Positions 10,908 through 16,377 of a stretch of DNA of 64,000 nt are shown here, in pieces. The DNA comes from Methanospirillum lacunae (GTDB lineage Archaea > Halobacteriota > Methanomicrobia > Methanomicrobiales > Methanospirillaceae). Position 1 is the first letter of the stretch, and every line of letters begins with the position of its first letter. Where the stretch lies: NCBI RefSeq assembly GCF_003173355.1, contig NZ_QGMY01000006.1, positions 186,001 to 250,000 on the forward strand, given 5' to 3'. The notes under the pieces were generated by a model, which searched no databases, was not told where the DNA came from, and saw only the letters and a program-made list of their open reading frames with translations. Position numbers and translations under genes: made by a program.

Positions 10908-11525
10908 TTATATCTCAAGTTTCGTCTGTTTATATCCCTCATTAACAGGTTTAATCAGGCCAGGATCATCATTTACCACGTGATTAACCCGTGATGATAC
11001 CTGGTGCATTTCAAGTTCGATTGAAGGTGGAATATCCCCATCTGCAAGGTAATCTTTCACATCAGAAAGGGAGAGCAATACAGGCATACGGTTATGAACA
11101 TCAGCATAATGAGGCATAGCCTCGGTTGTGAGGATGGCTGCCTGATAACCAGTTTTCCCTTGTTTTAGCAAACCAGCAAACGCAAATAGCGGATCAGATG
11201 GTGGAAAGAAGTAATAAGGAACCTTCCGGTTCTTTTCTTGTTTCCATTCATAGAATCCAGAGGCTGGAATCAGACACCTATGAGTAGTGTCTGAATCAGT
11301 ACGGCTGATATACTCATTGATCGATTCACTCCTGATATTGATAATTCGTTTTTGATCATTGAATTGATAGCCCCATTCAACCATATGGGCTGCAGATCCG
11401 GTTATTACAAGGATCATCTGGCCTGGAGCAATATTATATCTGGGCCTGAACACGGTTGGAACAAAGACCTTAAACAGGTCTGTTATCTCCCCGGGAGAAG
11501 CCGCAATACAAAACCGCCCACACAT
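10908..11525 (-). CDS. SRAP-family DNA-protein crosslink protein (YedK/HMCES-like)
   Basis: Family members begin Met-Cys and use Cys2 to form a thiazolidine link to abasic sites in single-stranded DNA. Here the start is placed at 11525, giving 205 residues that begin MCGRF, although the frame is open further upstream to 11639. An AGAAGGAG ribosome-binding site before 11525 supports this. Other family motifs are ASGFYEWK, HNRMPVLL and the C-terminal NHVVND. The initiator Met must be removed to expose Cys2. It is divergent from the large kinase and probably acts in repair of damaged forks. Confidence 0.9.
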   Translation of the reverse strand: MCGRFCIAASPGEITDLFKVFVPTVFRPRYNIAPGQMILVITGSAAHMVEWGYQFNDQKRIINIRSESINEYISRTDSDTTHRCLIPASGFYEWKQEKNRKVPYYFFPPSDPLFAFAGLLKQGKTGYQAAILTTEAMPHYADVHNRMPVLLSLSDVKDYLADGDIPPSIELEMHQVSSRVNHVVNDDPGLIKPVNEGYKQTKLEI

Positions 11526-11697
11526 CTGAATTAATTCTCCTTCTCTCCTATGAGAATCTACCGACAGTACATTTTCGAAAAATTTGATCCTGTTAGAACC
11601 GAATACTTCGGCATATAAGTTTATATCTAATCCATACACTCTTACAATACCAGAACTATCTCTTGATTATCCGATTGATATTCACTAATGGAAGACA

Positions 11698-15443: not shown

Positions 15444-15926
15444 TTATGATCTAATCTGAAATCCAGCTCTCCGTACGATATCACACATCTTTTGATCCCA
15501 AACCTTATCATCAGGTTCATGAAGAGTTCTTACACTGGTATCCCAAATTTTTTCCAAATCCGGGTCTTCTGCATGGAGATGTCTGCTCTGCATCACTCGT
15601 CCGGCACGGTTACCAGATGAGTCAAGAATCAGAAACCGCCAACACCCATATTCCTGGCAGATATCAGGCCGTGTGAGATGGACTGTGCAGTAATGGAGAC
15701 CATCTTTATCATCTCTCCTGAAGAAAGGACAGGCATCAGGACGCTCAGTAAATATTGTCTGATCATCGTAGAGATGATGCATGTGTGGAGAGACCGATAC
15801 TTTATGCTTCATTCCGGTGTACTGGTTTTCAATCAGAAATGTGTATGGATTGCAGGGCTTTACAATACAAAAAACCAGCCCCAGGTAACTGCAACATTCA
15901 CCACATTGCTGGCACTCAAATGAGAT
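15444..15926 (-). CDS. YkgJ-family cysteine-cluster protein with non-standard start
   Basis: Paralog of the protein at 84-557. From the first in-frame ATG (15812) it would be only 122 residues and would lack the family's main cysteine motif. The frame stays open upstream to 15947 and encodes FECQQCGECCSYLG, matching FECRICGTCCMYLG of the paralog residue for residue. There is no ATG, GTG or TTG in that stretch. The codon at the paralog's start position is ATC (15926-15924), 8 bases after GGGAGG (15940-15935). Read from there the protein is 160 residues against 157 for the paralog. Later cysteines (DACPFF, HYCTVH, DICQEYGC) are intact. It is convergent with the PocR kinase. Confidence 0.75.
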   Translation of the reverse strand: MSFECQQCGECCSYLGLVFCIVKPCNPYTFLIENQYTGMKHKVSVSPHMHHLYDDQTIFTERPDACPFFRRDDKDGLHYCTVHLTRPDICQEYGCWRFLILDSSGNRAGRVMQSRHLHAEDPDLEKIWDTSVRTLHEPDDKVWDQKMCDIVRRAGFQIRS

Positions 15927-16258
15927 GATCCGTTCCTCCCTGTGAAGCTAAAGAAAATATACTCATTGGGTTTAGATAGTTCTTCCCGTGAAAATCTCAA
16001 AACTACAATTTATAGGTCCGGCATACATTCGGATATATTTCACCATGTGATCTGTCGAGAAGAAAGCATATGTAAAATACCTTTTACATATAGTATGGTA
16101 ACACCTGGAGCAACCCTCCAGATGAACCAGAACGTAAGTCACATGACAGGTTTAGAATGCAGAAATAAATAGCTGCAGAAAAAACATGGGAGGTCACAAA
16201 AACATCTTAATGAACCAGGAGACATGAAACTAGATCCATCCATCCCTTAGCGGGAAAG

Positions 16259-16308
16259 AAGTGAAACGGGAATCACTCTAAAATACCTCTCTCTTCACCG
16301 TTTCACTT
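16259..16308. repeat. 11-base perfect inverted repeat
   Basis: Left arm AAGTGAAACGG (16259-16269) and right arm CCGTTTCACTT (16298-16308) are exact reverse complements with a 28-base spacer. It could fold as a stem in RNA or be a paired protein-binding site. It is not part of any gene I can support. Confidence 0.5.
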
Positions 16309-16377
16309 TACAGCGTTCACCAATTCTCGAAAATTATCAGAAAACATCGAAGCGTCTTTTTCACTTACCTGCACACT

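Follow-up and report, generated by a model that had tools for sequence, protein, structure and literature searches.

A putative ATC start codon in a PF03692-like gene of Methanospirillum lacunae and recurrent near-cognate starts among its archaeal orthologs

RESULTS

The window analyzed here is a 64,000-nucleotide stretch of the Methanospirillum lacunae genome (contig NZ_QGMY01000006.1, positions 186,001 to 250,000). On its minus strand, a frame is open from 15947, directly after an in-frame TAG stop (15950-15948), to the stop codon at 15446-15444. Direct reading of the sequence agreed with the original prediction that no ATG, GTG, or TTG lies between this upstream stop and the motif FECQQCGECC, and that an ATC codon (15926-15924) follows the Shine-Dalgarno (SD) sequence GGGAGG (15940-15935) at a distance of 8 nt. 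The 16S rRNA of the same genome ends GGATCACCTCCT. Two ATC codons stand in tandem at this site (15929-15927 and 15926-15924), and homology points to the second as the putative start position. Read from there, the coding sequence (15926-15444, minus strand) would encode 160 amino acids plus the stop codon, with a CxxCGECC metal-ligand motif at residues 5 to 12 (15914-15891). A rule-based caller chooses the ATG at 15812-15810 (Met39), which yields a 122-amino-acid product from which the motif is missing, as had been anticipated.

The window also carries a paralog on the plus strand (84-557), which starts with ATG and encodes 157 amino acids, again the length given originally. These two proteins had been described as matching residue for residue. 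They do agree in position and cysteine pattern (FECRICGTCC in the paralog, FECQQCGECC in the minus-strand gene), and both open with Met-x-Phe-Glu-Cys, but across their sequences they are only ~32% identical.

The product of the minus-strand gene is a small PF03692-like protein that probably binds iron-sulfur or zinc. Like PF03692 (YkgJ-type) proteins, it has an N-terminal CxxCxxCC motif (CQQCGECC, residues 5 to 12), whose cysteines C5, C8, C11, and C12 are invariant in 40 aligned orthologs; the 26 invariant columns of that alignment also include C66, C80, C90, and C95. At E ≤ 0.01, the PF03692 model recognizes each of these 40 orthologs (best, 3.2e-8); the window protein itself scores 21.9 bits (E = 2.9e-4) against a gathering cutoff of 23. 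A [4Fe-4S] cluster is present in FliB, a flagellin lysine methyltransferase whose CX4CX3CC motif is related (PMC8598068). This makes Fe-S binding by the window protein plausible, although the cysteine spacing of FliB differs. A sequence search of solved structures returned no relative at a convincing E value, and a fold search with an AlphaFold model (pLDDT 82, pTM 0.55, N-terminal residues 1 to 10 under 50) returned nothing at E ≤ 0.001 or at Z ≥ 5.

No conserved gene neighborhood was found across Methanomicrobiales. In six Methanoregula-type loci (L040, L042, L043, L068, L069, and L071), an apparent aIF1A gene, recognized from sequence, lies close downstream of the CxxCGxCC gene on the opposite strand; this arrangement is not order-wide. 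Upstream of the window gene is a strongly conserved intergenic element (16050-16310, minus strand), 80% identical in the nearest relative (G007) and partially present in G002. Its inverted repeats include AGTGAAACGG...CCGTTTCACT, a hairpin (CATCTGGAGG...CTCCAGGTG), and ATATGTAAAAGGTATTTTACATAT with a T-rich stretch after it. With a fold z-score of −2.25 and no Rfam match, it is possibly a small noncoding RNA gene. We considered this element as a regulator of the gene and rejected it: in G002 the element is on contig C295 and the gene on contig C262, and the element therefore travels separately from the gene.

Orthologs were found throughout Methanomicrobiales, their DNA was fetched, and duplicates were removed, leaving 126 readable at the aligned start; a class-wide search gave the same 232 genomes as the order-wide search. 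Across these 126 nonredundant orthologs, the aligned codon is ATG in 69, CTG in 30, GTG in 10, ATC in 7, TTG in 6, ACG in 2, and ATT and ATA in 1 each, so that 41 of 126 carry a noncanonical codon (not ATG, GTG, or TTG). Every non-ATG codon at this position (57/57) is one base from ATG, which would be very unlikely were the aligned codon not the start. In 26 orthologs, the stretch from the in-frame stop upstream to the motif has no ATG, GTG, or TTG, and in L006 the TAA stop directly abuts the CTG start. Of 27 genera, 12 contain noncanonical starts, as do four of the six families, and ATC at the aligned start also recurs in other genera and families. Within the genus Methanospirillum, the window's own codon included, we found ATC, ATT, TTG, and six CTG, with ATG in none. 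G007, the nearest relative (79% identical, a single complete contig), has ATT at the start and keeps GGGAGGA. The proposed comparison of the start base in related genomes thus had a divided outcome: by alignment, the start position is conserved and the near-cognate class is kept there, but ATC itself is not conserved (ATT in the nearest species, CTG or TTG in the rest of the genus).

Three alternatives had been offered for the window gene: a true ATC start, a start-codon mutation that had just disabled the gene, or a base-call error. Only the rarity of ATC as a start speaks for an error or a fresh knockout. However, either event would be unique to this genome, yet relatives share near-cognate starts, with ATT in the complete genome of G007, CTG or TTG in the rest of the genus, and ATC in other genera. 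Furthermore, when the window gene is compared with that of G007, neither of which has a canonical start, dN/dS comes to 0.098 for the whole protein and 0.167 for residues 2 to 38, the 37 residues upstream of the sole alternative ATG (the pair L116/L139, compared without aligning gaps, was left out of this analysis). The near-cognate starts in relatives rule out both events, the knockout being opposed also by a dN/dS of 0.10, and we assign them next to no probability. The same near-cognate starts, together with strong purifying selection, support the remaining alternative: the gene is functional, with a near-cognate codon at its start position, and we infer that initiation occurs at ATC 15926. 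A downstream start at ATG 15812 was rejected, as Met39 is not conserved as a start; residue 39 is Gln in G007, the nearest relative, and usually Glu elsewhere.

Entry into the frame by an RF2-like programmed +1 frameshift was also considered. Both the window and G007 have an out-of-frame upstream ATG (~15966 in the window, running to ATT TGA G) that reaches a TGA at a TTTGAG they share. Nevertheless, TTTGA is absent there in 66 of 126 orthologs, and a frameshift explains neither where the SD lies nor why near-cognate codons stand at the aligned position. We regard this route as very improbable.

As controls, start codons of three other genes were read in the same genomes. ATG and GTG accounted for 32 and 6 starts of NMN adenylyltransferase (NMNAT), 28 and 2 of SRAP, and 38 and 2 of HisRS, and no clear noncanonical start was present among these ~110 control sequences. 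A check of the few odd control codons found an ATG within one to four codons upstream of four of them, whereas one, in the NMNAT gene of L252 (a draft genome), was ambiguous. The frequency of noncanonical starts differs significantly between the target family and the controls (41/126 versus 0/110; Fisher P = 2e-13), and the conclusion is the same if L252 is counted as noncanonical. When the window was compared with the syntenic 80 kb of G007, annotated-length genes other than the target had canonical codons aligned in both sequences close to where homology begins. In the target alone, the first canonical codon common to both lies far inside the homologous region, at 55 amino acids. The window's own SRAP-family gene (10908-11639, minus strand) has its longest frame from GTG 11639; conservation of MCGRF puts its true start at ATG 11525.

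In the paralog subfamily (the 84-557 type, n = 70), starts are ATG in 58, CTG in 9, and GTG in 2, with one offset (ACA and then ATG). By alignment, CTG starts arise in this subfamily too, less often than in the target family. The CTG-start paralogs (L160, L162, L176, L179, L282, L288, L291, L292, and L303) come mainly from Methanoregula-like genomes, and their SD sequences are stronger than those of ATG-start members of the same subfamily.

The history of the codon was traced on a quick maximum-likelihood tree from which the first three residues were omitted; many inner branches are weakly supported, and the counts of change are approximate. At least 33 start-codon changes were counted, at least 19 of them between canonical and noncanonical codons. 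By parsimony, the counts per codon were at least 13 for CTG, 9 for GTG, 6 for TTG, and at least 6 for ATC. Published counts for 61,358 ancestral AUG starts in 36 prokaryote groups are 363 changes to GUG, 113 to UUG, 2 to CUG, and 1 to AUU (PMC5622118), a comparison that is rough because evolutionary depths differ and our parsimony counts are undirected.

SD strength varied with start type. Stronger SD compensation has been reported at GTG and TTG starts (PMC5622118), and the conserved AUU and AUA starts of Staphylococcus aureus likewise carry an extended SD (PMC13009471). Among the orthologs, mean predicted anti-SD pairing was −10.2 kcal/mol for noncanonical starts, −9.2 for GTG/TTG, and −5.8 for ATG, with shifted control positions at approximately −4 (noncanonical versus ATG, Mann-Whitney P = 3e-12). 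Phylogenetically paired comparison of SD and start type gave the same direction and was not significant (2.5 pairs for, 0.1 against), the informative pairs being few.

DISCUSSION

Starts other than ATG, GTG, and TTG are very rare in prokaryotes, and conserved noncanonical starts are known from bacteria and plastids. The gene described here fits the class represented by infC, pcnB, and ccpN in having a near-cognate codon at the homologous position, with canonical starts absent in 26 orthologs, and in having a strong SD at proper spacing (GGGAGG and 8 nt in the window). Like infC, which encodes IF3 and starts with AUU in Escherichia coli and AUA in S. aureus, it combines a conserved noncanonical start with a strong SD. 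The infC product, however, discriminates among start codons and feeds back on its own synthesis, whereas no such role is known for the window protein. S. aureus cvfC1 (AUU) and ccpN (AUA) similarly pair a conserved noncanonical start with an extended SD, and cvfC1 encodes a small putative zinc-finger protein (PMC13009471). These are unrelated bacterial proteins, and their output has been measured at ~10 to 30% of that from AUG. A further parallel is E. coli pcnB, an otherwise ordinary gene with a near-cognate start, for which an AUU codon is described as limiting synthesis (Binns & Masters 2002, as cited in PMC13009471); low output is what we propose here. Whereas pcnB is bacterial and uses AUU, the window family is archaeal and uses several near-cognates, mainly CTG. 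No comparable archaeal case was found in the literature searched, which omits most subscription journals.

We consider it probable that the window gene is intact and translated from ATC by way of its strong SD, and that the weak start caps synthesis in a pcnB-like form of dosage control. The GGGAGG sequence would place the ribosome on ATC 15926, and SD-directed initiation would proceed there at reduced efficiency. The weak start would then limit the synthesis rate, setting a ceiling on protein dosage as in pcnB, while the strong SD would keep initiation sufficient for the protein to be made. The return of this gene to near-cognate starts, again and again within Methanomicrobiales, would follow if their weakness limits output. 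In S. aureus reporters, AUU or AUA combined with an extended SD yielded roughly 10% of the output from AUG, with ccpN reaching as much as 30% in rich medium (PMC13009471). We infer both low protein output and selection for start weakness; as a counterpoint, ATG is present in over half of the orthologs, and a weak start is thus not obligatory.

The same data might instead reflect neutral tolerance, in which little protein is needed and a strong SD lets the start drift among near-cognates with no selection for weakness. We regard this explanation as possible, if rather unlikely. Many different near-cognates are in use, ATG recurs, and non-ATG starts go with a strong SD, all as drift would have it. 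Yet drift should favor transitions (GTG, ACG, and ATA) and better starters, whereas the transversions CTG (30) and ATC (7) outnumber GTG (10), ACG (2), and ATA (1). Moreover, SRAP, which is likely expressed at a low level too, has only ATG and GTG. Drift by itself would not predict so many CTG and ATC starts, though it is compatible with them.

A selected weak start could also serve regulation rather than a fixed cap, coupling the gene to initiation-factor or metabolic state as in infC or ccpN, perhaps with feedback. The architecture of a noncanonical start with an extended SD, as in infC, ccpN, and cvfC1, agrees with such regulation, and archaeal aIF1 discriminates against non-AUG start codons (PMC6237735). 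However, no domain or conserved neighbor ties the protein to translation: family searches gave no match to an initiation-factor family, and the aIF1A-like neighbor lies on the other strand and is no general feature, being seen in some Methanoregula-type loci. We consider regulated initiation improbable. Bolder still is the idea that CxxCGxCC proteins are part of a circuit for archaeal start-codon fidelity, in which their near-cognate-driven synthesis would report on, or feed back to, the initiation stringency set by aIF1 and aIF2. We hold this to be a long shot; if true, archaea would have an equivalent of the infC loop that is built on an unrelated protein.

With a dosage cap as the favored reading, the family bears on archaeal gene expression more broadly. 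It is an archaeal family with noncanonical starts in a third of 126 orthologs, CTG being the commonest, and its natural ATC, ATT, CTG, and ATG versions of one gene make archaeal start-codon stringency directly testable. Annotation restricted to ATG, GTG, and TTG would shorten or miss such proteins, dropping the metal-binding motif, as it does with the call at 15812.
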